Of a stretch of DNA of 27,562 bases, positions 2,126-15,178 are shown piece by piece. The notes beneath the pieces are model-generated. The model was not told where the DNA came from, did no database searches, and worked only from the letters and a program-made list of their open reading frames with translations. A program made the position numbers and the translations under genes. How positions within the stretch are numbered: position 1 is the stretch's first letter; each line of letters begins with the position of its first letter. The DNA comes from a virus: the IMG/VR virus record IMGVR_UViG_3300030329_001308, positions 1 to 27,562 of that record. One strand, 5' to 3'.

Positions 2126-2556
2126 ATGAGATCCTGTTAAGGATTAACGTCTGGATTAGTTGTAATGGTTTAGAAAAAAATGCTTATTCTGGGGTAGAAT
2201 TTCCTTATAATGCTATGTCATTATCTGAAAATAGGTATGCAGAATATCGCAATTTAGATGATGTTTATCAAGAACTGATTGCATTGTATGATATAGCACA
2301 AGAAAAAGGATTTGATTTGGGTCAAGCATTATATACACAATCAGCATTTTTTGTAGATTATTTTTTATTGTTGAGTGAGGATATACAATCAATGATAAAA
2401 GATTACTTGTTTTGCAAGACATTTAATTGCCCTCCATATAAATCACTAGCAGATACTCCTGATGAGTTAAAGAATAATTTTTTAATTATTGATAGTGAAT
2501 ATGGTAAAGTCAAATCCGAGAATCAGAAAAAAGAAACTATGAAGGATAAGAAGTAA
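1856..2556 (+). CDS. tail assembly chaperone, -1 frameshift fusion (gpGT-like)
   Basis: A -1 slip at A AAA AAG (2116-2122) would join the 89-residue short product to a frame open from 2110 to the TAA at 2554-2556. The extension begins V-D-E-I-L-L-R-I-N-V-W and is 144 residues long, giving a 233-residue protein. The extension contains helices around AEYRNLDDVYQELIALYDI and a charged end. The first ATG of the extension is at 2215, in mid-domain and without a Shine-Dalgarno sequence, so independent initiation is unlikely. This matches the G/GT arrangement of lambda and most siphoviruses, in which the T part contacts the tube protein. The fusion is inferred from sequence, not shown by protein data. 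Confidence 0.75.
2113..2144 (+). other. programmed -1 ribosomal frameshift site with hairpin
   Basis: A run of nine A (2113-2121) followed by G gives the heptamer A AAA AAG at 2116-2122 in the correct phase, directly before the zero-frame TAG. Eight bases further on, ATCCT (2131-2135) and AGGAT (2140-2144) form a five-pair stem with a GTTA loop. That spacing suits a frameshift stimulator. The same A AAA AAG heptamer drives frameshifting in E. coli dnaX. Confidence 0.75.
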
Positions 2557-4187
2557 TGGCATCATCAACTACATATACAATTAATGTTAAGTCCAAAGGT
2601 GTTAAAAAAGCAGACAATGATATTAAAAAACTTAAAGGATCTATTGGTGGTTTAAGCAAGGCAGTTGCAGGACTCGCTATTGGTTTTGGTGTTTATAAAC
2701 TAGGTGGTGCAATAATCAATATAGGCAAGAGTTCTATTGAAACAGCAGGACAATTTGAAACATTACGAACAAGATTAGATGTTATGTATGGCTCTGTTCA
2801 AAGAGGTGGACAGGCTTTTGATAATTTTAATAAGATAGCAGCCACAACTCCATTCCAACTTAAAAATGTAGTAGAAGCAGGTGCATCATTAAAAGCATTT
2901 GGTGCTGATGCAGAAGAAATGGCAAAACCAATCGCTGATTTAGCAGCATTTATGGGGGTAGATATAGTAGATGCAGCATCTGCTTTCGGTAGAGCATTTG
3001 CAGGTGGAGCAGGTGCAGCAGATATGTTAAAAGAGAGAGGTGTTCTACCATTAATCGCATCATTTTCAGGAATTGAGGATTTAACTAAATTAACAATACC
3101 TGAATTTAGAGATGTAATGGAGAAGGCTTTGACAGATCCAAGTTTAGGTATAGCAGGTATGACAGAAAAAATGTCTAAAACTTGGGAAGGAACAGTCTCT
3201 AATTTCAAAGATGGTATAGAAAGAATAAAGGCAGCAATTGGTACACAATTAATATCAAAAATACAGCCATTAATAGAAGATATAAATACAGAATTTGGTA
3301 AAATGGGTGAGATAGGTTGGGAAAATGTTGGTACATCAATGGTAGATAATTGGAGAGAGATATTTAGGGTGTTGACAAGAGTATTTGTTGAAGGTGGAAT
3401 ATTAGCAGGAAAAACATTTTTAGTAGGATTGTCAGCAGGGTTTCAATCAGGCTATGTAGCAATTGGTGATAAGTTAATGGAAATGATGGGATTTAGTCCA
3501 AGAGGTGCTAAAACAGGTTGGATAGATGAAGCAACAGATTTACTAATAAGAGATTTTAATAAGGCATTAAATGATGTAGGTGCAGATTTTAAAAATTTAA
3601 ACCAAATCATATTGAAAGATGCAGAAGAAATAGGTGAGAAATCAAAAGAGCAATCAGAAAAAAATACTGAAACTTTTGTACAAGGACAAAAAAAAGCCAA
3701 TGATGAACTAGAAAAGTCAGATGATGAATTAACAAGGAAAAAATTAGAAAATTTAGCAAAGTCTGCAAGTAGTGCATCAGAAGGTGCTAAATCTGTAATA
3801 AAAAGTGAAAGTATGAAAGCAATAGCAGGATTGATTTCAAGTATTTTGAGAGGAGTGCCATATCCTTTTAACTTATTATTAGCAGCAACAGCAGGAGGTG
3901 CAGCAAGTGGTTTGATTGATAAAGGGTTGGCACAAATACCTTCATTTGCAACAGGTGGTAGTTTTGTTACAAATGGTGCAGAACCAATTATGGTTGGTGA
4001 TAATCCAAGTGGTAGAGAGTTGGTAAGCGTAACACCATTAGATGCATCAGGACAGCCAACATCAACAGCAGGTGGGGTTAATATTACATTTACAGGCAAC
4101 GTGATGAGTGAACAATTCATAGAGGAACAGGCAATACCACAAATCAAAGAAGCAATCAGACGTGGTGCAGATATAGGTATTGGATAA
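2556..4187 (+). CDS. tape measure protein
   Basis: This 543-residue protein follows the chaperone pair and precedes the tail hub. It shows the usual tape measure features: an N-terminal SKAVAGLAIGFGVYKLGGAII membrane-like segment near residues 31-52, long Ala/Gly/Lys-rich helices, a TMP-core-like region (LKNVVEAGASLKAFGADAEE, with IADLAAFMG and VDAASAFGRAFAGG), a coiled-coil stretch near residues 345-415, and a second hydrophobic segment near 430-455. The C-terminus has a GGxFVTNGAEPIMVGDNPSG motif that is common at the ends of phage tape measures. The length predicts a rather short siphovirus tail of about 80 nm, using the usual 1.5 A per residue. The start overlaps the preceding stop. Confidence 0.88.
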   Translation: MASSTTYTINVKSKGVKKADNDIKKLKGSIGGLSKAVAGLAIGFGVYKLGGAIINIGKSSIETAGQFETLRTRLDVMYGSVQRGGQAFDNFNKIAATTPFQLKNVVEAGASLKAFGADAEEMAKPIADLAAFMGVDIVDAASAFGRAFAGGAGAADMLKERGVLPLIASFSGIEDLTKLTIPEFRDVMEKALTDPSLGIAGMTEKMSKTWEGTVSNFKDGIERIKAAIGTQLISKIQPLIEDINTEFGKMGEIGWENVGTSMVDNWREIFRVLTRVFVEGGILAGKTFLVGLSAGFQSGYVAIGDKLMEMMGFSPRGAKTGWIDEATDLLIRDFNKALNDVGADFKNLNQIILKDAEEIGEKSKEQSEKNTETFVQGQKKANDELEKSDDELTRKKLENLAKSASSASEGAKSVIKSESMKAIAGLISSILRGVPYPFNLLLAATAGGAASGLIDKGLAQIPSFATGGSFVTNGAEPIMVGDNPSGRELVSVTPLDASGQPTSTAGGVNITFTGNVMSEQFIEEQAIPQIKEAIRRGADIGIG

Positions 4188-7100
4188 TGTTTATTTCTAA
4201 ATCATTTAAAAAGGATATATTATCAAATAATACAAATATTATCCCTGTCATCTTAATAGAAAAATTAATACAAAAAGCATCTACATATATTGACCCTGAT
4301 ACAGGGTTTGAGGAAACATCACCTGCAATTATAGAACCAAAAGGATTTTCTACAAATAATTTACAAATTAAAGAATCATCTAATGTTGGAGGTGTTGATA
4401 ATCCAGATATATATTTAAGACCAATTTTGCTAGGTTTACCGAACTTAAAAGAATCAGTAGATTTGGACAAGGGCAAATATAAAATATCCTCTGTAACATT
4501 GAATTTTAGTAATGTTGATTACAATGGTGTTAGAATGTCTGATTTGTTTACTAATAATATGCTTATTAATGAAACAGTTAGTATTCATTTGAAATCGCAA
4601 TCCTGCACTACTATTACTCCATCATTAAGAAATGTTGATCAATCATTAAAAGACACCGATTGTGCAGTATTATATGTTGGCAAGATTAGGTCAATATCAC
4701 ATACAGACCAGACATTGACTATGCAATTAGAGGACTACACAGAGCAAAAAATACATAGAGATTTGCCTTTAATAGAACTAGGAGATGATAAAAATATACC
4801 TGATAGATATAAAAATAAGCCTGTTCCTATGATATATGGGAGATTAAATAATGCACCTACTGTTGCAAAGTATGTAGATGGTAAATATTCTATTATTTTT
4901 GATTATAAAGATATAGGAGGGTCTGTTACAGAAAATTATTATTCAGGGTTTTATTATGATCAGCAGAATGAACCAATAGATGAAAGTTGGGTTATAGGTG
5001 GATTAAAGTTGTATGATGAGCAGTATTTATCAGTTATGCACAATATAAAGCATCAATTTGTTAAAAATGAATTTTTAAATGATGACCCTGATGATTTAGA
5101 TGTGGAATTAAACCCTGATTATGCTCCACTAACTATTGGGCAAACGCAGATTATTTTTGATTCTTTTAATAATAATATGATACAAATTGAAAATGGTGGC
5201 TTATTTACTAGGAACAGGTTGCAGACATTATCTCAATCTGTGCCAAACAATATATCCTTTAAAAGATTAAATGATAATGGTTATAGTGGTCAGCAAAACC
5301 AAGAATATATAGATGAAAATATTTTAAGTGAACTTATATCAGAAAATAGTGTTACGATTTCTGCAACAAGTAGCAATGTTGGATATGTAGGTAACATTGA
5401 TAACAATCTAATTTCACAAGACATCTTGTTTGGTTATAGATTGTCATCATCTTATGGTCTTAATGGAGGTAAATATAATAAATTGCTGAAATTTACTTTA
5501 AATGATTACAATTTGCCTGTAAAAGACATAGATGCAAACATACAATCTTCTTATAGTTGGGAAGAAAAAGTACCACATTTATTTTCTGGTGCAGATAATT
5601 TAACAGGTGGTATAAATCCTTTTTTATATGCTTTTTATAATTCATTCTGGGAATTGACTAATACTGAACCTACAACATACTCTGATTGGGGTGTCAATAT
5701 AATCCCTTCCGAATGGATAATATATCTTTCTTTACAGTATGATAACAATCAGGGATCTTATGTTCCACCATTTGCACTTGCACCAAATACTTCTGAATTT
5801 CCAAATACAATAACCACATTTAATGATGATGATTATGAAGGATTGCAAATAGGATATAATTATGTTTTTAACCCTGATAGAACAATTAAATTCATTACAA
5901 GTATTGATACTACCGAATCTATACCAAATGATAGTCTTACAGGCAACTGTTTCCCTGTGATTAGATTTCACGAGGGAACAAAGTCATACCAAGATGACAA
6001 GGCAGATTCTTTATCCTATAATATAGATTTTCTAAAAATGTATAATTTATCAACTGCAAATGGATTTGATATTAATAGTAATATTTGTGATTCACAGATT
6101 GAATTAAATATTAATAATATAAAACAATATTCAATAGTAGATGTGGAAGATGTAACAAAAAAGGATTTTTATGTTGATGTACAAGGCAGGTTAACAGATA
6201 ACCTAGATGATGTTTATTATAATGAGGAAATATATTTCAGAAACCCTGTTGTGATAATGAGAGATATATTGCAAAATGAATTAAATGTTTCAGATTTTGA
6301 TGAAGAAGAATATGAAATAGCCTGTGAACAACACCAAGATTATCAATTTGCTTTTGCAGTAGATAAAAAAACAAATTCAAAAAAATTAATTGAGCAAATA
6401 AGTGAGTTTACTCGTTCATATCCAAGAATTAAAAATAATGGAAAGTTCGGATTTGTTACATTGAAGAAATTGTATGAGCAAACAGACTATGAAAATTCTT
6501 TATTAATAAATACTGATGATATAATTAATTATGATTTTAAATTAACAGATATTAATCAATTGATTTCAAGTATAGATGTGGAATATGAATATGATTATGG
6601 GTCAAAAGATTATCTTAAAAAATATACTAATTCTCCTAATATGACACAACAAGCATTGAGATTTTATGGCATAGAGGATTTATTAGATAACAAGACAACA
6701 ATAAAAACAAATCATACCAATAATTCAGACACAGTAGCCATAATTGCTGCTGAAAAATTCTATAATGAATCTGCACAACATTTAATGATAAATATAAAAT
6801 TACCTTTGAGATATACAGAATTAGAGGTTGGTTCTTTAATTAAATTTGAAAAAGATAAACTTATAGATGGTATAAGAGCCTATGGTATGGATTACACAAA
6901 CCCCATTAAATATGGCAGATCTTATAGATACCCATTATTTTTAGTTACAGAAATACAAAGAGGATTAGATTTTATTAACATATCTTGTTATCAATTGCAT
7001 AAGATTTTTGATGTTGATAGTGACCACACAGATAATCATCAATTCTGGAATGATACTAATTTCCCAAACATTAATCTTGATGATCCTGCATTAAATATAT

Positions 7101-7315
7101 CAGATGAACTTTTAGAAGATGTAGAGGAAGGTTTGGGTGATGTCAATTTAGATGAAAATGTAGATATACTAGATGCAGTAATGTTGGCAGCATATCTTTT
7201 AGGTAATACGGATTTAAGTGAAACACAACTATCAAATGCAGATTGGAATCAAGACAATAATATTGATATTACAGATGTTATATCTCTTATTCAACATATA
7301 TTAGGAAACATATAA
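4187..7315 (+). CDS. tail hub/tip protein with C-terminal dockerin domain
   Basis: This 1042-residue protein is the largest gene and directly follows the tape measure, the position of the distal tail or central hub protein. Residues about 690-930 look like the hub domains of gp27/Tal-type proteins, with a segment containing ISEFTRSYPRIKNNGKFGF followed by beta strands ending in LFLVTEIQRGLDFINISCY. The last 63 residues (about 980-1042) form a clear type I dockerin-like repeat pair. Loop 1 has D985, N987, D989, N991, D993 and D996; loop 2 has D1019, N1021, D1023, N1025, D1027 and D1030; each is followed by a hydrophobic helix ending in LLG or ILG. Both calcium loops are intact. The start overlaps the tape measure stop. 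The dockerin would be exposed at the tail tip or could hold a partner with a cohesin fold. Confidence 0.8.
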   Translation: MFISKSFKKDILSNNTNIIPVILIEKLIQKASTYIDPDTGFEETSPAIIEPKGFSTNNLQIKESSNVGGVDNPDIYLRPILLGLPNLKESVDLDKGKYKISSVTLNFSNVDYNGVRMSDLFTNNMLINETVSIHLKSQSCTTITPSLRNVDQSLKDTDCAVLYVGKIRSISHTDQTLTMQLEDYTEQKIHRDLPLIELGDDKNIPDRYKNKPVPMIYGRLNNAPTVAKYVDGKYSIIFDYKDIGGSVTENYYSGFYYDQQNEPIDESWVIGGLKLYDEQYLSVMHNIKHQFVKNEFLNDDPDDLDVELNPDYAPLTIGQTQIIFDSFNNNMIQIENGGLFTRNRLQTLSQSVPNNISFKRLNDNGYSGQQNQEYIDENILSELISENSVTISATSSNVGYVGNIDNNLISQDILFGYRLSSSYGLNGGKYNKLLKFTLNDYNLPVKDIDANIQSSYSWEEKVPHLFSGADNLTGGINPFLYAFYNSFWELTNTEPTTYSDWGVNIIPSEWIIYLSLQYDNNQGSYVPPFALAPNTSEFPNTITTFNDDDYEGLQIGYNYVFNPDRTIKFITSIDTTESIPNDSLTGNCFPVIRFHEGTKSYQDDKADSLSYNIDFLKMYNLSTANGFDINSNICDSQIELNINNIKQYSIVDVEDVTKKDFYVDVQGRLTDNLDDVYYNEEIYFRNPVVIMRDILQNELNVSDFDEEEYEIACEQHQDYQFAFAVDKKTNSKKLIEQISEFTRSYPRIKNNGKFGFVTLKKLYEQTDYENSLLINTDDIINYDFKLTDINQLISSIDVEYEYDYGSKDYLKKYTNSPNMTQQALRFYGIEDLLDNKTTIKTNHTNNSDTVAIIAAEKFYNESAQHLMINIKLPLRYTELEVGSLIKFEKDKLIDGIRAYGMDYTNPIKYGRSYRYPLFLVTEIQRGLDFINISCYQLHKIFDVDSDHTDNHQFWNDTNFPNINLDDPALNISDELLEDVEEGLGDVNLDENVDILDAVMLAAYLLGNTDLSETQLSNADWNQDNNIDITDVISLIQHILGNI

Positions 7316-7833
7316 TGGAGAAAATAATTTTAAATAATGGCAAAATATCAATACCCATAGGTCAAAATGTGGTTGGATTAGATATTAAATTGTCAGGTCA
7401 ATACGAGTTGGAATATATAACTAAAAGTAACTTTTATATAGATTATAGTGATAATAGAATTATCGGTTTTGGGGTTGGTACAAAATTAGGCATATCTACA
7501 TTTTTAGAATACACAGGAAATTTAAAAATTATTAATTGCAAGGTTGTAAAAGACAATTTAAAAGTTGTTGAATTATTGCCATATTACCAAATAGATAAAT
7601 TTAATAAAAACCACTCTACTTTTGATGGTAGTCAGGGATTAATAGAAAATTTAAGCAAAGATAATGTATTTGGAACAATACCACAAAAAATAAAAACTAC
7701 ATTTAAAAATGAGATATATGACCAAGATGGCAAAAAAATAGATATACAAAAAAATAATAATAGGAATATATCTAGGATTTTAAAAACAATTAATATGATA
7801 AAAACAGAAGCAACAAGCACAGGAGGATATTAA
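7315..7833 (+). CDS. small tail-tip protein, possible cohesin-like domain
   Basis: This 172-residue protein overlaps the end of the dockerin-bearing hub gene. Residues about 10-88 are an almost continuous set of short beta strands (VVGLDIKLSG, NFYIDY, RIIGFGVGTKLG, FLEYTGNLKIINCKVV). The order of a VxGxDxxLSG strand, then an F-rich strand, an IxGF strand and a YTGxLxI strand is reminiscent of the beta sandwich of cohesin modules, although this one is shorter than the usual 140 residues. The second half is Lys/Asn-rich with a short YDQDGKKI segment and no clear fold. A cohesin role is my inference from this weak pattern plus adjacency to a dockerin. It may simply be a small beta-sandwich tail protein. 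Confidence 0.5.
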   Translation: MEKIILNNGKISIPIGQNVVGLDIKLSGQYELEYITKSNFYIDYSDNRIIGFGVGTKLGISTFLEYTGNLKIINCKVVKDNLKVVELLPYYQIDKFNKNHSTFDGSQGLIENLSKDNVFGTIPQKIKTTFKNEIYDQDGKKIDIQKNNNRNISRILKTINMIKTEATSTGGY

Positions 7834-8858
7834 TGGCACAATATAGTAATATCAGGAAACCTGCATTTTATGTACCATTATGTGATTATTTACAGAGTTT
7901 AGGAAATGTAGAGTATAAAGATGATGCCTTAAATGATATACACTTATTAAACCCAACTAAAACACATACTATGGAATTGCCAATAAATGAGCCAACAGTT
8001 TATGATGTTGATTTTACAGGATCTATTCAGTTAGAAACAATTACAGATTCAGATGGATATATTTATATTTTTGTTCTAGGACATAATCTGCATACAATAG
8101 ATGCATCAATACAAATACAGTTGATTGAAAATGGTACTTATAATGACCCAACAACTAGAACGCTTGTTATAAATGACAATGGTGCTTCAAGCAAACCTAC
8201 CTATAATGGTTTTACAATATTCAAAGCAAAGTATAGTGTATCAAAGGTTGATGGATATAGAATTAAAATTACAAATAATGGTGATTCTGTGCAGAATGTT
8301 AAGTTAGGTTGCATATCACTATGTTCTAAATGGAATCCACCACATACACCTGATTTATCAGTTTCAATGGTCAGAGAATATGATGGAGTTGCAACTACAC
8401 AAACAAAAGGTGGTGCAACATTATCCAATGCATCATATACAAGAGGTGGAACATTCTGGGCAACATCTTATGCTTGGGAACTGACCACAGGACAATATGA
8501 GCAAGGAACAGAAGCAACTATTGAAATGCAGAGAACATTAGGCAGAAGAATATGGAATATGAATTTTAGTTATTTAACACCAGAGAATCTGATGCCTAAA
8601 ACAGAATCTTTAAATTATTATGAAACATCATTAACTGCTAATTCAGATACAATACTCAATTCACAATCATTCTTTGCAAGAGTGCTAAATAGGGTACAGG
8701 GTTCACATATTCCATTTATATTCCAAGCAAATGATACAGACCCTAATAAAAACCCAGACCAATGGGCAATAGTTAGATTTGATCAGGGTAATTTCTCTAT
8801 AACACAGGCAGCACCAGACTTATATTCATTATCTATGAAGTTAAGGGAATCTTATTAA
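7833..8858 (+). CDS. hypothetical tail/adsorption-associated protein
   Basis: This 341-residue beta-rich protein begins after AGGAGGATATTA, a strong ribosome binding site. The middle (residues about 55-165) has a jelly-roll-like run of strands (VYDVDFTGSIQLETI, YIYIFVLGHNLHTID, GFTIFKAKYSV, GYRIKITNNGDSVQNVKLG). The last part (WNMNFSYLTPENL, FQANDTDPNKNPDQWAIVRF) resembles distal tail components that bind DNA-tip or receptor modules. It is the last large gene of the tail operon. I do not recognise a specific family; a carbohydrate-binding or receptor-contact role is possible but unproven. Confidence 0.55.
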   Translation: MAQYSNIRKPAFYVPLCDYLQSLGNVEYKDDALNDIHLLNPTKTHTMELPINEPTVYDVDFTGSIQLETITDSDGYIYIFVLGHNLHTIDASIQIQLIENGTYNDPTTRTLVINDNGASSKPTYNGFTIFKAKYSVSKVDGYRIKITNNGDSVQNVKLGCISLCSKWNPPHTPDLSVSMVREYDGVATTQTKGGATLSNASYTRGGTFWATSYAWELTTGQYEQGTEATIEMQRTLGRRIWNMNFSYLTPENLMPKTESLNYYETSLTANSDTILNSQSFFARVLNRVQGSHIPFIFQANDTDPNKNPDQWAIVRFDQGNFSITQAAPDLYSLSMKLRESY

Positions 8859-9175: not shown

Positions 9176-9382
9176 ATGTTAGAAATATTAATATCAAATT
9201 CAAAAGATAGAAAATGGGTTTTAAAAGAAGTTGAAGAATTACAAGAATGTGGTTTAGAAACTTATGGAGATTTCGTAGGATATTGGAAAAATCATTTTTG
9301 TAAAAATCAATATCCACCTGCAAAATTTAAAGAATTTTGTATAAATTTTTTAGCAACTATTGAAAATGAATTAACATATTAA
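9176..9382 (+). CDS. small hypothetical early protein
   Basis: This 68-residue acidic, helical protein (RKWVLKEVEELQECGLETYG, then FKEFCINFLATIENEL) contains two Trp and three Cys that do not form a zinc motif. It is the first gene after the intergenic region and has a GGAGAAATAA leader, a close variant of the GGAGAAACAA leader used by later small genes. I do not recognise a family. Position suggests an early gene that could act on the host or on early regulation. Confidence 0.6.
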   Translation: MLEILISNSKDRKWVLKEVEELQECGLETYGDFVGYWKNHFCKNQYPPAKFKEFCINFLATIENELTY

Positions 9383-9400
9383 TTAACTAGGAGAAACAAA

Positions 9401-9514
9401 ATGAATTTACTGAAACAATTTCTAAAAGAGATTCGCAAAGATTGGGAAATCAAAGTTTTAGGCAAACAGCCACGAGATAAAAAAGGTAGGTTTGTTAAAA
9501 GGAGAAACAAATGA
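9401..9514 (+). CDS. very small basic protein
   Basis: This 37-residue protein starts MNLLKQFLKEIRKDWE and ends in a basic KGRFVKRRNK tail. It has the exact GGAGAAACAA leader at 9390-9399 and a start at 9401. Its last codons include the leader of the next gene, and its TGA overlaps that gene's ATG (ATGA at 9511), so translational coupling is likely. The short GxFVKRRNK end is typical of small basic phage proteins. Function is unknown. Confidence 0.55.
   Translation: MNLLKQFLKEIRKDWEIKVLGKQPRDKKGRFVKRRNK
9501..9510 (+). promoter_or_regulatory. GGAGAAACAA start leader (representative of a repeated family)
   Basis: The same ten bases precede starts at 9401 (one extra A), 9511, 9659, 9780 (GTG), 10757 and 13497. 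Near variants precede 9176 (GGAGAAATAA) and 12672 (GGAGAATAA). This exceeds the Shine-Dalgarno match alone, which needs only GGAG, and I found it only in the early module. Confidence 0.6.
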
Positions 9515-9618
9515 TAGAAGAAAGCGTTTTAGGGCATATTTTAGTGTTTCTAGCCATTATTATTACTTTTGTGGTATATGAGTTGGTCAGGGAATATTTA
9601 AAGGGAAATTGGGGATAA
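9511..9618 (+). CDS. tiny single-pass membrane protein
   Basis: This 35-residue protein has a short acidic start (MIEESV), one membrane helix at about residues 8-24 (GHILVFLAIIITFVVYE) and a charged end. It starts at the ATGA overlap with the preceding gene, after the GGAGAAACAA leader. It is one of several tiny membrane proteins in this module. Such proteins may modify the host envelope or block superinfection, but no function can be assigned from sequence. Confidence 0.55.
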   Translation: MIEESVLGHILVFLAIIITFVVYELVREYLKGNWG

Positions 9619-9625
9619 AAGAAAA

Positions 9626-9679
9626 AACCCTACAAGGTGGATATGTTTGGAGAAACAAATGACAACTAGAAGTAGGGTT
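9626..9679 (+). repeat. 8-bp inverted repeat enclosing a ribosome binding site
   Basis: AACCCTAC (9626-9633) is exactly complementary to GTAGGGTT (9672-9679). The 38-base loop holds the GGAGAAACAA leader and the ATG at 9659. If folded in RNA it would present or shield the start of the 23-residue gene, or serve as a processing or termination structure. GC-rich 8-bp matches at this distance are uncommon in such AT-rich DNA, but chance is possible. Confidence 0.45.
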
Positions 9680-9730
9680 AATTCTAATAAGAGTATTATT
9701 TATAATATAAAATATTTTTTATTTAATTAA
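9659..9730 (+). CDS. mini-gene of 23 codons (doubtful)
   Basis: ATG at 9659 follows the perfect GGAGAAACAA leader and opens a 23-codon frame (MTTRSRVNSNKSIIYN start, aromatic end) that stops at TAA 9728-9730. The leader supports translation, but the product is so small that it may be a leader peptide or an eroded gene. A TTAATT/TATAAT pair 17 bases apart (9678-9683 and 9701-9706) overlaps it and could be a promoter for the annealing protein gene at 9780. Confidence 0.35.
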   Translation: MTTRSRVNSNKSIIYNIKYFLFN

Positions 9731-9779
9731 AAAGATTTAAATTCGGTTTACATTTTCAAAACAAAAAAAGGAGAAACAA

Positions 9780-10331
9780 GTGAGTATCAAGATACACGGA
9801 AAGGACTATGTCCTAGTAAATGAGAGAGTTCAAGAGTTCCATAAGTTATATCCAAATGGTTCAATCAGAACTGATTTAATAGAGTTCACAGATAGATTCA
9901 TAATCAAAGCAGAAGTATGTCCAGATGTTGCAGATAGAATGAGAATATTCACAGGATATGCTTATGAAATGGTAGGATCATCACAAATAAATAAAACATC
10001 AGCACTTGAAAATTGTGAAACAAGTGCAGTAGGCAGAGCATTGGGAATGTTAGGGATTGGAATTGATGGATCTATTGCAAGTGCAGATGAAGTTCAAAAT
10101 GCAGTACATCAGGAACAAGCACATAATGTTACTGAACAACAAAAAGATAAATATCAGGAATTGTTAAAGCATAAGTGTTTTGAGGGCAAGAAGAAAAAGA
10201 CTAATGAATGGTGGACACAAATATATGATTCACCAAATCCAAAGATTGCTGCTGAAAAAGCATTAAAAACAATGCAACAAGCAATAGAATTATTTAAGAA
10301 TCCAAAAATAGAAAAACAAGAGGAGAAGTAA
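9780..10331 (+). CDS. putative single-strand annealing/recombination protein (ERF/Rad52-like, tentative)
   Basis: This 183-residue protein starts at GTG 9780 after the GGAGAAACAA leader. It has a beta-rich N-terminal half (SIRTDLIEFTDRFIIKAEVC, then FTGYAYEMVGSS) followed by the motif TSALENCETSAVGRALG at residues 73-89 and SIASADEV at 98-105. This ENxETSAxGRAL signature is widespread in phage proteins placed beside SSBs and annotated as annealing or recombination factors. The Lys-rich C-terminal third looks flexible. The next gene encodes a SpoVG/SSB-like protein two bases away and RusA lies downstream, which supports a DNA annealing role. The family name is given from memory of the motif and not tested by profile search. 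Confidence 0.6.
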   Translation: MSIKIHGKDYVLVNERVQEFHKLYPNGSIRTDLIEFTDRFIIKAEVCPDVADRMRIFTGYAYEMVGSSQINKTSALENCETSAVGRALGMLGIGIDGSIASADEVQNAVHQEQAHNVTEQQKDKYQELLKHKCFEGKKKKTNEWWTQIYDSPNPKIAAEKALKTMQQAIELFKNPKIEKQEEK

Positions 10332-10332
10332 T

Positions 10333-10659
10333 ATGGAATATAAAATAGATAGAATGAAAAAAGGTAATTGGGGTAAAATAGTAGCATTTTTTGACCTTAA
10401 ATTTGTAGGAATGACATCACATTTTGATATGACTATAAAAGGGTTTAAGTTGGTTGAAGGTGTTAATGGTAAATTTGTTAGTATGCCAAGTCAAAAAGGT
10501 GATGATGGTGAATATCACGATACAACTTGGGTTGATAAAGATACTAGAAATATCCTGAATAATCTTGCTATAAAAGCATTTGAATCAGATGGTGAAGAAA
10601 TAGAAGAAAAACCTATTGAGGAATTAATTGCTGCTGCAAAAGATGATCTACCTTTTTAA
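10333..10659 (+). CDS. SpoVG-family protein with SSB-like acidic tail
   Basis: This 108-residue protein matches the SpoVG pattern: a strand with AFFDLKFVG, then TIKGFKLVEGVNGKFVSMPS and a DGEYHDTTWV segment, followed by a helix (NILNNLAIKAFES). SpoVG proteins bind nucleic acid. The end is acidic and finishes DDLPF, the same kind of tip that bacterial SSB proteins use to recruit partners. It starts after GAGGAGAAG and follows the annealing protein by one base. Together these suggest the phage's single-strand DNA-binding protein. The SpoVG assignment is strong by motif; the SSB role is inference. Confidence 0.72.
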   Translation: MEYKIDRMKKGNWGKIVAFFDLKFVGMTSHFDMTIKGFKLVEGVNGKFVSMPSQKGDDGEYHDTTWVDKDTRNILNNLAIKAFESDGEEIEEKPIEELIAAAKDDLPF

Positions 10660-10670
10660 TTGCTAACGAT

Positions 10671-10740
10671 ATGCAGGGTTCTATTGTCGGGGGATTGCAT
10701 AGTGCTTGTGAATATACACTATCCAGATAGTTCCCTGCAT
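10671..10740 (+). ncRNA. structured intergenic element (candidate RNA or attenuator)
   Basis: ATGCAGGG (10671-10678) pairs perfectly with CCCTGCAT (10733-10740). Inside, after a TT/TT internal loop, CTATT (10681-10685) pairs with GATAG (10726-10730) using one GT pair, and an inner ATAGTG (10699-10704) pairs with CACTAT (10717-10722). The 70-base block is much richer in G+C than its surroundings and has no open frame. It lies between the SSB-like gene and the next gene. No T tract follows, so a simple terminator is not favoured. Strand assumed from the flanking genes. Confidence 0.55.
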
Positions 10741-10756
10741 TAATATGGAGAAACAA

Positions 10757-11173
10757 ATGAGAGAAACAACTTTTATTACAGAATTAAATTATAAACAAGT
10801 AGATATATTATCAAAAGATGAATCATTATTTATGGTTGATGGTGAAGAACATACATATTTTAATGTTAAGATTCATTGGGGATTAAAATTTTCTGAAAGT
10901 TATTCAGATATAGACATTACACCATTTATTGATAGAATTGAAGTTACAAGTGGAGATGGTGTTACAGATAATGGTATAATCATTGTAAAACACGATTTTG
11001 TTAATATAGCATTTTCTGCACCAGGAGATTGGAATACAAATGATTGGAAGTGTAAAACCAATTTTTTACGAGATGATGATAGAATAGGATATAGATGGCA
11101 CGTTACTATTAAGCCTAAATTTGTAGCAGTAGATATAGATAAAAAAATTGTGGAGGTATTATTTAATGCATAA
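10757..11173 (+). CDS. hypothetical early protein
   Basis: This 138-residue protein begins at ATG 10757, placed six bases after GGAG (10747-10750) in the repeated leader. An in-frame ATG at 10745 lies before the leader and is unlikely to be used. The protein is beta-rich and acidic in the middle (FSESYSDIDITPFIDRIEV, GIIIVKHDFVNIAFSAPGDW) and ends with strands (WHVTIKPKFVAVDIDKKIVEVLF). No known motif was recognised. Its position between the SSB-like gene and a small HTH gene places it in the DNA-metabolism module. Confidence 0.6.
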   Translation: MRETTFITELNYKQVDILSKDESLFMVDGEEHTYFNVKIHWGLKFSESYSDIDITPFIDRIEVTSGDGVTDNGIIIVKHDFVNIAFSAPGDWNTNDWKCKTNFLRDDDRIGYRWHVTIKPKFVAVDIDKKIVEVLFNA

Positions 11174-12671: not shown

Positions 12672-12851
12672 ATGAAACCAAAACCAATTAATACATTAGA
12701 CACAACATTACAATCAAAAAAAGTATCTATTGAAACGCCAATAGGCAAATTAGAATCAGATTCAGGAAATCATTTTGTAGATATTATATCAGTAGTAGGT
12801 GTTATTGCAGTATTATACATAGGCAAAAAATTAGTAGATAAATGTCTATAA
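12672..12851 (+). CDS. small membrane-anchored protein
   Basis: This 59-residue protein has a polar N-terminal part (MKPKPINTLDTTLQSKKVS) and one membrane helix at about residues 37-52 (IISVVGVIAVLYIG) followed by a basic end. It starts after GGAGAATAA, a variant of the repeated leader, and its end overlaps the start of the Mom-like gene by ten bases. Function is unknown; it may be an envelope-acting early protein. Confidence 0.58.
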   Translation: MKPKPINTLDTTLQSKKVSIETPIGKLESDSGNHFVDIISVVGVIAVLYIGKKLVDKCL

Positions 12852-13483
12852 AAGATAAATATTATGTAGAATCTATTGATTCAAGAGAAACTTATGATTG
12901 GTTATTGAATAAGCATTATGCTAAAAGAATACCATCTATATCTTATGCTTTTGGATTATTAAAAGATAGAGAATTATTAGGTATTTGCACTTTTGGTAGT
13001 CCTGCATCACCAAACTTATGTACAGGTGTTTGTGGCAAAATATATAAATCACGAGTTATTGAATTAAATAGACTTTGTGTGAATGATATTGCAGTAAATA
13101 ATATTACATCATATTTTTTAGGTTGTTGTTTGAAATTGATACCTAAACCAAGAATAGTTGTCAGTTATGCAGATAAAGCACAAAACCATAATGGCTATAT
13201 TTATCAGGCAACAAATTGGATATATACAGGATTTACACAAGAGAGAACAGATATTGGTTCAGATGATAATACACATAGTAGGCATTATGATAAAAATATT
13301 GATTATAAGAAGAATAGAAAATTTAGAAGCAGTAAACACAGATATATAATGTTTTTAGGCAACAAGACACAAAAAAAGAATATGTTAAAAAATTTAAAAT
13401 ATGAGATAAAGCCATATCCAAAAGGTGAAAATAAAAGATATGATGCAAGTTATAAGCCTATAACACAGATGAAATTATTTTAA
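12842..13483 (+). CDS. Mom-like DNA modification protein (GNAT-type fold)
   Basis: This 213-residue protein matches the pattern of the Mom family. It has KHYAKRIPSISYAFGLLKD (about residues 24-42), LLGICTFGSPASPNLC (45-60), VIELNRLCVND (72-82), KPRIVVSYADKAQNHNGYIY (102-121) and ATNWIYTGF. Phage Mu Mom converts adenine in DNA to a carbamoylmethyl form and so blocks restriction enzymes. This gene could protect the phage genome in the same way. The basic C-terminal third (SKHRYIMFLGNKTQKK) probably contacts DNA. A C5 methyltransferase and a zinc protein follow closely, so this is a DNA-modification block. The chemistry here is inferred from the family, not shown. Confidence 0.8.
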   Translation: MSIKDKYYVESIDSRETYDWLLNKHYAKRIPSISYAFGLLKDRELLGICTFGSPASPNLCTGVCGKIYKSRVIELNRLCVNDIAVNNITSYFLGCCLKLIPKPRIVVSYADKAQNHNGYIYQATNWIYTGFTQERTDIGSDDNTHSRHYDKNIDYKKNRKFRSSKHRYIMFLGNKTQKKNMLKNLKYEIKPYPKGENKRYDASYKPITQMKLF

Positions 13484-13658: not shown

Positions 13659-13837
13659 ATATTCCAAATTGTCCTAAATGTATATCACCATTAAAGGTGG
13701 CAGAGTTCCTAGTATCAGAAGATGATGTAGAAGAAGGATTGGAGTGTACTAATCCATATTGCAAATTTACTGTATTAGAAATGCTTGGTGAGTTTTTGTT
13801 TGAAGATTATAATGATGAGATGTATGGAGATTTATGA
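13655..13837 (+). CDS. small zinc-ribbon-like protein
   Basis: This 60-residue acidic protein contains C6-P-K-C9 and C31-TNPY-C36, a CxxC...CxxxxC pattern that could bind one zinc. It lies between a membrane protein and the C5 methyltransferase with ATGA overlaps on both sides, so it is probably translated with them. It may act as a small regulator or a helper for the methyltransferase, but there is no direct evidence. Confidence 0.6.
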   Translation: MNIPNCPKCISPLKVAEFLVSEDDVEEGLECTNPYCKFTVLEMLGEFLFEDYNDEMYGDL

Positions 13838-14448
13838 AAGTATTAGAACTTTTTGCAGGATCTAGGTCATTCTCAAAGGTTGCAGAAGAAATGGGGTATG
13901 AAACATATACAAGTGATTTTAAAGCATTTGATAATATAGACCAAGTTTGTGATATATTTGATTTTGATGTAAGTAAGATTCCATTTAAGTCTGATATTAT
14001 TTGGGCATCACCACCTTGTACATATTTTAGTGTTTCATCAATAGGACACCATTGGAATAAAGACCATACACCAAAAACATTTCAAGCAGTACAGGGTGTT
14101 AAAATTGTGCAAAAAACATTAGATATAATTAAGGAATTGAATCCAAAATATTATTATATTGAAAACCCAAGAGGTAAATTAAGAAAATTGTCTGTTATTC
14201 AAGGTGTTCCAATTAGAAATACAGTATGTTATTGTAAGTATGGAGATAACAGAATGAAACCAACAGATATATGGACAAATGATATGTGTTGGATTCCAAG
14301 AGCAATGTGTCATAACGGAAACAGAAATTGTCATCACGAAATAGCACCAAGAGGTTCAAGGACAGGAACGCAAGGAATGAAAAATGCTTATGAAAAAAGC
14401 AAAGTTCCATCAGAATTATGTGAAGAAATATTGAAAGGGATAAAATGA
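13834..14448 (+). CDS. C5-cytosine DNA methyltransferase-like protein (compact)
   Basis: This 204-residue protein shows motif I (LELFAGSRSFSKVAEEMGYE, residues 4-23), acidic S-adenosylmethionine-binding residues near 28-43, the catalytic ASPPCTYFS (about 58-66, with C62) and ENP at 110-112 where ENV is usual. It is shorter than typical Dcm-type enzymes of 300-400 residues, and a separate target-recognition domain is not evident. The Cys/His-rich region from about 127 (NTVCYCKYGDNRMKPTD, then MCHNGNRNCHHEIAPRG) may bind metal or DNA. It could methylate cytosine to hide phage DNA from restriction; it could also be a reduced or altered enzyme. It overlaps genes on both sides. Confidence 0.75.
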   Translation: MKVLELFAGSRSFSKVAEEMGYETYTSDFKAFDNIDQVCDIFDFDVSKIPFKSDIIWASPPCTYFSVSSIGHHWNKDHTPKTFQAVQGVKIVQKTLDIIKELNPKYYYIENPRGKLRKLSVIQGVPIRNTVCYCKYGDNRMKPTDIWTNDMCWIPRAMCHNGNRNCHHEIAPRGSRTGTQGMKNAYEKSKVPSELCEEILKGIK

Positions 14449-14743: not shown

Positions 14744-15178
14744 TTGGAAATTGAGGGCAATCCAAAGCCACAACAAAGACACCGACATTTCAAGTACGGA
14801 ACATACGACCCCTGCAAAAAAGATAAAGAAGATTTTTTAAAAAAAGCATTAAAAGACTATAATTATTCCAAAGCCTTTACTCACCTGCCAAGATTAACCC
14901 CATTACATATAAATATTAAATTCTATATGAAGCGACCCAAATCACATTACAGGTCAGGCAAATATTCAGGATTAGTTAAAGATAAGTGGCAAGAAGTATT
15001 ACATACCAAGAAGCCTGATATTGACAATCTTATTAAATATGTTTTAGATAGTTTAAGTGGTCATAATGGGTTCTTCCTTGATGATAACCAGATATACACT
15101 ATATACGCAGAAAAACTTTATTCAGATAAACCAAGAACTGAAATAATGATTATTGAAGAAGATGAAGTTAAAAATTGA
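14744..15178 (+). CDS. rusA: RusA-type Holliday junction resolvase
   Basis: From TTG 14744 the protein is 144 residues. It carries GNPKPQQRHRH near the start, KKPDIDNLIKYVLDSLSG (about 89-106) and LDDNQI (112-117). Asp92, Asp94, Asp102, Asp113/114 and Lys98 fit the metal and catalytic positions of RusA. RusA resolves branched DNA formed in replication and recombination, consistent with the annealing and SSB-like genes upstream and the packaging genes downstream. AAGGAG at 14718-14723 lies too far from the TTG (20 bases) but is eight bases from an in-frame ATC at 14732. The real N-terminus may therefore be four codons longer and begin at a rare ATC start (see findings). Confidence 0.85.
   Translation: MEIEGNPKPQQRHRHFKYGTYDPCKKDKEDFLKKALKDYNYSKAFTHLPRLTPLHINIKFYMKRPKSHYRSGKYSGLVKDKWQEVLHTKKPDIDNLIKYVLDSLSGHNGFFLDDNQIYTIYAEKLYSDKPRTEIMIIEEDEVKN

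Follow-up and report, generated by a model that had tools for sequence, protein, structure and literature searches.

The window analysed here is the whole of a 27,562-base virus record (IMGVR_UViG_3300030329_001308). In it, the gene that directly follows that of the tape measure protein ends in a dockerin domain, and its stop codon overlaps the start of a gene for a small protein with a predicted cohesin-like fold. The features on which the argument draws are the following.

2556–4187, plus strand: gene of the tape measure protein, immediately 5' of the hub gene; its PHROG matches are tape measure families, phrog_973 (E 1e-12) among them
4187–7315, plus strand: tail hub gene (1042 aa), with a core at about residues 1–940 and a C-terminal dockerin; 55 viral relatives; named in part from its position after the tape measure gene
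7133–7303, plus strand: type I dockerin domain, hub residues 983–1039 (PF00404, 43.4 bits, E 4e-11; genome search, 48.3 bits, E 3.4e-14)
7139–7174, plus strand: calcium loop 1 (D985–D996), read directly; D996 is invariant and D985, N987 and D989 nearly so among 34 hubs
7241–7276, plus strand: calcium loop 2 (D1019–D1030), read directly; D1023 and D1030 are invariant and D1019 and N1021 nearly so among 34 hubs
7313–7317, plus strand: TAATG, the hub stop overlapping the start of the next gene, read from the sequence
7315–7833, plus strand: gene encoding a small, 172-aa cohesin-like protein (family A4), the proposed dockerin partner; present in 85 of 85 listed dockerin hubs with room downstream; AlphaFold2 model
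7315–7590, plus strand: predicted cohesin-like beta domain, residues 1–92 (AlphaFold2 pLDDT mostly 74–94 per ten-residue block; the top four PDB folds are cohesins)
7833–8858, plus strand: third tail-tip gene (341 aa), in the same order in relatives; it lies beyond the apparently inserted unit, and a homologue is found directly 3' of dockerin-less prophage hubs

Elsewhere in the window, 12842–13483 encodes a Mom-family DNA modification protein (PF25680, 135 bits) and 13834–14448 a short C5 cytosine methylase-like protein. A SpoVG-like protein (10333–10659; PF04026, 39 bits) lies in the replication region, which also contains a RusA resolvase (14744–15178).

The tail hub gene and its dockerin domain

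The product of 4187–7315 is called a tail hub from its place right after the tape measure gene and from weak matches to Phage-tail_3 (PF13550) in 14 of 34 hub relatives (best E 0.018). When the hub profile was compared with that of the lambda gpJ family, the alignment was colinear and took in the motifs NPxxIxxDIL and (V)GDxIxF, but at an E of 0.24, which is not significant. Faint PF13550 matches and a non-significant gpJ comparison are what might be expected if the protein were some other tail-tip or fibre protein bearing a dockerin. We regard this as very improbable, given the position directly 3' of the tape measure gene, the colinearity with the gpJ family including both motifs, and the same gene order in prophages.

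The C-terminal domain of this protein is a true dockerin. Its match to PF00404 (Dockerin_1, curated cut-off 22.9 bits) spans the full profile (1–57 of 57), and both loops carry complete calcium ligands: D985-N987-D989-(N991)-D993-D996 in the first, D1019-N1021-D1023-(N1025)-D1027-D1030 in the second. The domain has the two repeats by which dockerins are recognised, each with an F-hand loop (Asp or Asn at positions 1, 3, 5, 9 and 12) and a helix, and the dockerin of a relative, L034, is modelled with two helices at a pLDDT of about 90. By sequence, its nearest PDB chains come from dockerins of cellulosomes (2vn5_B, 2mte_A and 1daq_A), matched at an E of about 1e-3 from the single sequence and down to 2e-7 with a family profile. 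Written as a DNA pattern, the loop motif is found at two places in the window, namely the loops themselves, against 0.02 expected in shuffles, and this, together with the full PF00404 match, rules out a chance motif. The initial annotation, made from the sequence alone, had placed a dockerin at hub residues of about 980–1042 (7124–7312) and described two complete calcium loops of dockerin type. Translation of the open reading frame confirms the coordinates and residues, the ligands are those it had written, and the PF00404 search that it proposed gave a score well clear of the curated cut-off.

Close relatives of the whole hub were found neither in the annotated phage collection nor, with a single-sequence query, in viral contigs. 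Three related viral contigs could be reached via the tape measure protein, which in the window has relatives in L002–L004 at 47–49% identity; one of the three encodes a full hub (40% identity), which also ends in a dockerin-like domain, the first loop of which is degenerate. From this hub and the window's own, both trimmed of the dockerin, a profile was built that led to 55 viral loci. In this set, fetched by hub similarity alone, a dockerin is present in all 45 hubs (38 distinct) whose 3' end lies inside the contig. Pfam detects it in 33 of 34 aligned hubs, the exception being the degenerate one, and it ends no more than 20 residues from the C-terminus in 127 of 131 open reading frames with hub and dockerin (all loci, duplicates counted). 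The matches listed in a scan of viral contigs by dockerin DNA motif, made independently of the hubs, were mostly hub C-termini again, including those of very diverged and split hubs. The hub dockerin is thus a trait of a lineage and not an accident of a single genome. Certain exposed dockerin positions outside the calcium ligands and the core (10, 11, 14, 17 and 18) are also kept in both repeats, as [VI]10-L11, V14 and [VI]17-N18, as expected for a two-fold binding surface.

Several variant arrangements occur within the family. The hub is split into two open reading frames in L070, L088, L098, L109, L128, L140 and L142, with the dockerin on the C-terminal half; the N-terminal half in several of these has a Gly-rich tail and a terminal Tyr (GGGY or GGGGY), resembling the GGY end of the small protein described below. 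The C-terminal hub reading frame of L088 (2136–4775) has its dockerin in an internal position (residues 124–188), and the cohesin-like gene is still directly 3'. In L155 (IMGVR_UViG_2811995110_000196, reverse strand, 4925–8575 and 9215–11032) the hub dockerin is worn, the third tail protein has an intact dockerin (residues 233–287), and the small cohesin-like gene lies between. A different type of viral dockerin protein, 126–129 aa long and with no adjoining cohesin-like gene, was seen in L087, L110, L136, L146 and L147.

The adjoining gene and its predicted cohesin-like fold

Among the matches listed, the gene that follows the hub is a homologue of 7315–7833 in 85 of 85 distinct dockerin hubs that have 450 or more bases of contig after them, against 0 of 14 non-hub dockerin reading frames with room; these counts are not independent events because the contigs are related. 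In every relative, hub and small gene abut or overlap, with a spacing that ranges from −8 to +20 nt. Five more cases with the partner gene concern reading frames that are cut by the contig start and resemble hub ends. Chance pairing of the two genes is ruled out by the difference between the two counts. Among phage open reading frames no natural fusion of dockerin and cohesin-like domain was found.

Members of family A4 are conserved over their first 80–95 residues, followed by a second half that is variable, predicted with low confidence and mostly GGY-ended; the window's protein likewise has a low-confidence second half and a GGY end. Its first part was read as cohesin-like from sequence, ahead of any structure model. 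AlphaFold2 predicts a confident all-beta domain for residues 1–92, and the four best PDB matches of this model are all cohesins (2vo8, 2xdh, 5nrk_A and 5n5p_A), as are the eight best matches of a second model, that of the joined chain of relative L034 described below (from 4dh2, 5k39, 3fnk, 2vn5, 2xdh and 4wi0). Over both models the top probability is 0.90–1.00, the best E values are 1.4e-4 and 1.8e-3, and the TM-scores, at 0.32–0.44, are modest. The two modelled sequences are less than 20% identical, yet their models have alignment rows in common. The Pfam Cohesin profile (PF00963) has no match in the window at E ≤ 10, the Pfam cohesin search found none in 35 relatives of the small protein, and no cohesin was recovered by sequence among PDB sequences, also with a profile of phage and host domains. 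Because of the modest TM-scores and the lack of a match to a cohesin sequence profile, we term the protein cohesin-like by predicted fold and do not call it a Pfam cohesin.

Contact between the two domains was approached in L034, where the hub stop and the next start are in frame, so that reading the stop as glycine gives one chain. In the model of this joined chain both domains have a pLDDT of about 90, and the pTM is 0.55 even with some 85 residues in linker or disordered parts. Chain-length arithmetic gives about 0.38 for two mutually independent domains and about 0.57 if both are placed; the observed value, nearer the latter, suggests a defined packing of dockerin and cohesin-like domain, with the reservation that a short tether can aid placement. 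The top viral fold match of the joined model is a single chain, BFVD A0A516LNX3 (1389 aa; 229 columns), which may be a natural fusion or may align separate parts. From the models and the gene order, the most likely partner of the hub dockerin is the cohesin-like domain of the 7315–7833 protein.

Dockerin-less hubs, bacterial counterparts and the probable host

A scan of genomes with the full hub alignment gave no match. The trimmed hub core, without the dockerin, found hubs in 4 of 245 genomes of the phylum Neomarinimicrobiota (E to 2e-40) and, in Bacteroidota, a weak match in 1 of 242 genomes (E 2e-10). One Neomarinimicrobiota relative sits at 124 kb within a contig of 502 kb, which marks it as a prophage. 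In the five hubs read, the protein stops at the end of the core, and neither a dockerin nor a cohesin-like domain was found in the surrounding 14–20 kb. The third tail gene family (7833–8858 in the window) is matched by the next gene in three of the five and by the one after in G100 (E 1e-6 to 4e-3 by HMM; 90% and E 1.5e-6 when profiles are compared). Dockerin and cohesin-like gene are thus both absent where the flanking gene is kept, and by this comparison of gene order the two look like a single unit added between tail genes that are themselves conserved, the alternative being a loss in the prophage lineage.

Among the matches listed for bacterial genomes, the dockerin motif is commonest in Candidatus Neomarinimicrobiota (SAR406), and the profile of the phage-derived domain matches secreted proteins of this phylum (E 8e-10, 3.5e-7 and 4e-6). 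Profile iteration led to 22 bacterial cohesin-like domains, 13 of which lie 13–21 residues after a dockerin on the same chain. Several such chains then have a PNPFNP-type C-terminus, often a type IX sorting domain (T9SS type A, 42.5 bits, in L245). Seven Neomarinimicrobiota genomes hold from 1 to 45 cohesin-like domains each, some as multi-domain arrays within one reading frame, and two further genomes hold 22 and 26; no such domain was found in three dockerin-bearing genomes from Bacteroidia, Poribacteria and Ruminococcus. The phage-only cohesin-like profile matches 9 of 244 Neomarinimicrobiota-phylum genomes versus 0 of 242 from Bacteroidota. More distant copies, reached by iteration only, occur in a few MAGs labelled Bacteroidetes, Bacteroidales or Lentimicrobiaceae. 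The phage host is probably a member of Neomarinimicrobiota (SAR406). Tandem cohesin-like, scaffoldin-like proteins are encoded in G003:C64 (a 1372 aa reading frame), G003:C1 57976–60993 (1753 aa) and the reverse strand of L259 (654 aa), beside dozens of single-domain ones, in what is apparently an undescribed dockerin/cohesin-like surface system.

The bacterial chains carry in one protein, and in the same order, what the phages encode in two adjacent genes, a Rosetta-stone argument that the parts belong together. This bears on the proposal that the dockerin is a calcium-stabilised cap for folding or oligomerisation, with no cohesin contact, and that its neighbour is an ordinary tail-tip protein tied to it by operon order alone. 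The degenerate loops of some hubs and the modest TM-scores to cohesins would suit such a cap. It is at odds with the joint presence and joint absence of dockerin and partner gene, with the match of the neighbour's fold to cohesins, with the single bacterial chain and with the exposed positions kept in both repeats, and we consider it improbable.

A somewhat less improbable reading, which we would still call unlikely, gives the dockerin a receptor-binding role: it would dock on cohesin-like domains of the host surface in a calcium-dependent adsorption step, and the phage's own cohesin-like protein would cap it or bind host dockerins. The domain is located on a tail-tip protein, Neomarinimicrobiota genomes offer cohesin-like domains in numbers of up to 45, partly as tandem arrays within one reading frame, and this reading keeps some weight because the dockerins of the phage and those standing in tandem in the host have exposed positions of the same class. 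Against it, the partner gene strictly adjoins the hub, so that the dockerin likely has a partner of its own; that whole arrays serve as receptors is a guess, and the host is itself only probable.

The proposed joint and its relation to known systems

Dockerin–cohesin contacts are among the strongest protein pairs known and occur in cellulosomes and in other bacterial or archaeal assemblies. The explanation that we favour is that the hub dockerin binds the neighbouring small protein through a calcium-loaded contact of this kind, which would hold that protein at the tail tip non-covalently. Standing in for a covalent link, the contact would thereby present at the tip either the flexible second part of the small protein or the third tail protein. 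The pair would derive from a C-terminal module of the host, split over two genes, with what was once a covalent tandem turned into a joint between two proteins. Taken as a whole, with a joint on the tail tip, a host-derived pair and a Neomarinimicrobiota (SAR406) host, we find this explanation fairly probable. Against it stand the facts that cohesin profiles do not match the small protein and its TM-scores to cohesins are modest, that the packing argument from the joined chain is indirect, that genes side by side in a tail operon may be kept together on other grounds, that the first dockerin loop is degenerate in L004 and L005 and that the hub dockerin is worn in L155.

The initial annotation had offered two functions, docking of a module onto the virion or binding of a host protein with a cohesin fold. 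The docking idea is now the better supported, because the adjacent gene is cohesin-like in every relative with room and the pair forms one chain in the probable host phylum. As to the search for host cohesins that it had suggested, cohesin-like domains are present in nine of nine genomes searched singly from Neomarinimicrobiota, the probable host phylum. More tentatively, and falling somewhat short of an even chance in our estimation, a marine phage tail tip uses a split, SAR406-derived dockerin–cohesin unit that may swap partners with the host network at adsorption.

If true, a pair conserved in tail tips would put the dockerin–cohesin joint to a new use, would show how phages recruit surface-assembly parts of their hosts, and would give a calcium-dependent step in tail assembly or adsorption. 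The comparison also exposes a widespread dockerin and cohesin-like system in SAR406, an uncultured phylum of the ocean, and offers the dockerin hub with its cohesin-like neighbour as a marker for tying viral contigs to a SAR406 host.

No dockerin on a phage tail hub, and no dockerin–cohesin pair in a virion, was found described in the open-access literature, in agreement with the initial annotation, which knew of no such hub. Two phage proteins have been given the name. Gp02 of Escherichia coli phage vB_EcoS_HSE2 is a tailspike-like protein with a modelled likeness to a cellulosomal carbohydrate-binding module, PDB 2wz8 (PMC5967307), and gene 40 of Vibrio phage VvAW1 bears it as a blastp remark, with no tail role given (PMC3558961); both have only the word dockerin in common with the window's hub. 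Central tail hubs of the lambda gpJ type resemble the window's hub in following the tape measure gene, in the weak PF13550 matches (14 of 34) and in the colinear motifs; they differ in that the profile comparison is not significant and that the gpJ relatives examined have no dockerin.

The type I pairs of cellulosomes (PF00404 and PF00963) are alike in the two calcium loops, the full Pfam match and the internal two-fold repeat of the dockerin, and in that the best fold matches of the phage partner are cohesins. In contrast to them, the phage dockerin sits on a tail protein, its partner is shorter (about 92 versus about 140 residues) and unmatched by Pfam Cohesin, and the recognition positions read [VI]-L and [VI]-N, where the CelS dockerin of C. 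thermocellum has Ser-Thr and Lys-Arg. The closest counterparts are the secreted Neomarinimicrobiota proteins with dockerin, cohesin-like domain and type IX C-terminus, which have the same domains in the same order (E 8e-10) and the same class of dockerin positions; they are built as one chain, whereas the phage has two adjacent genes and no sorting domain.
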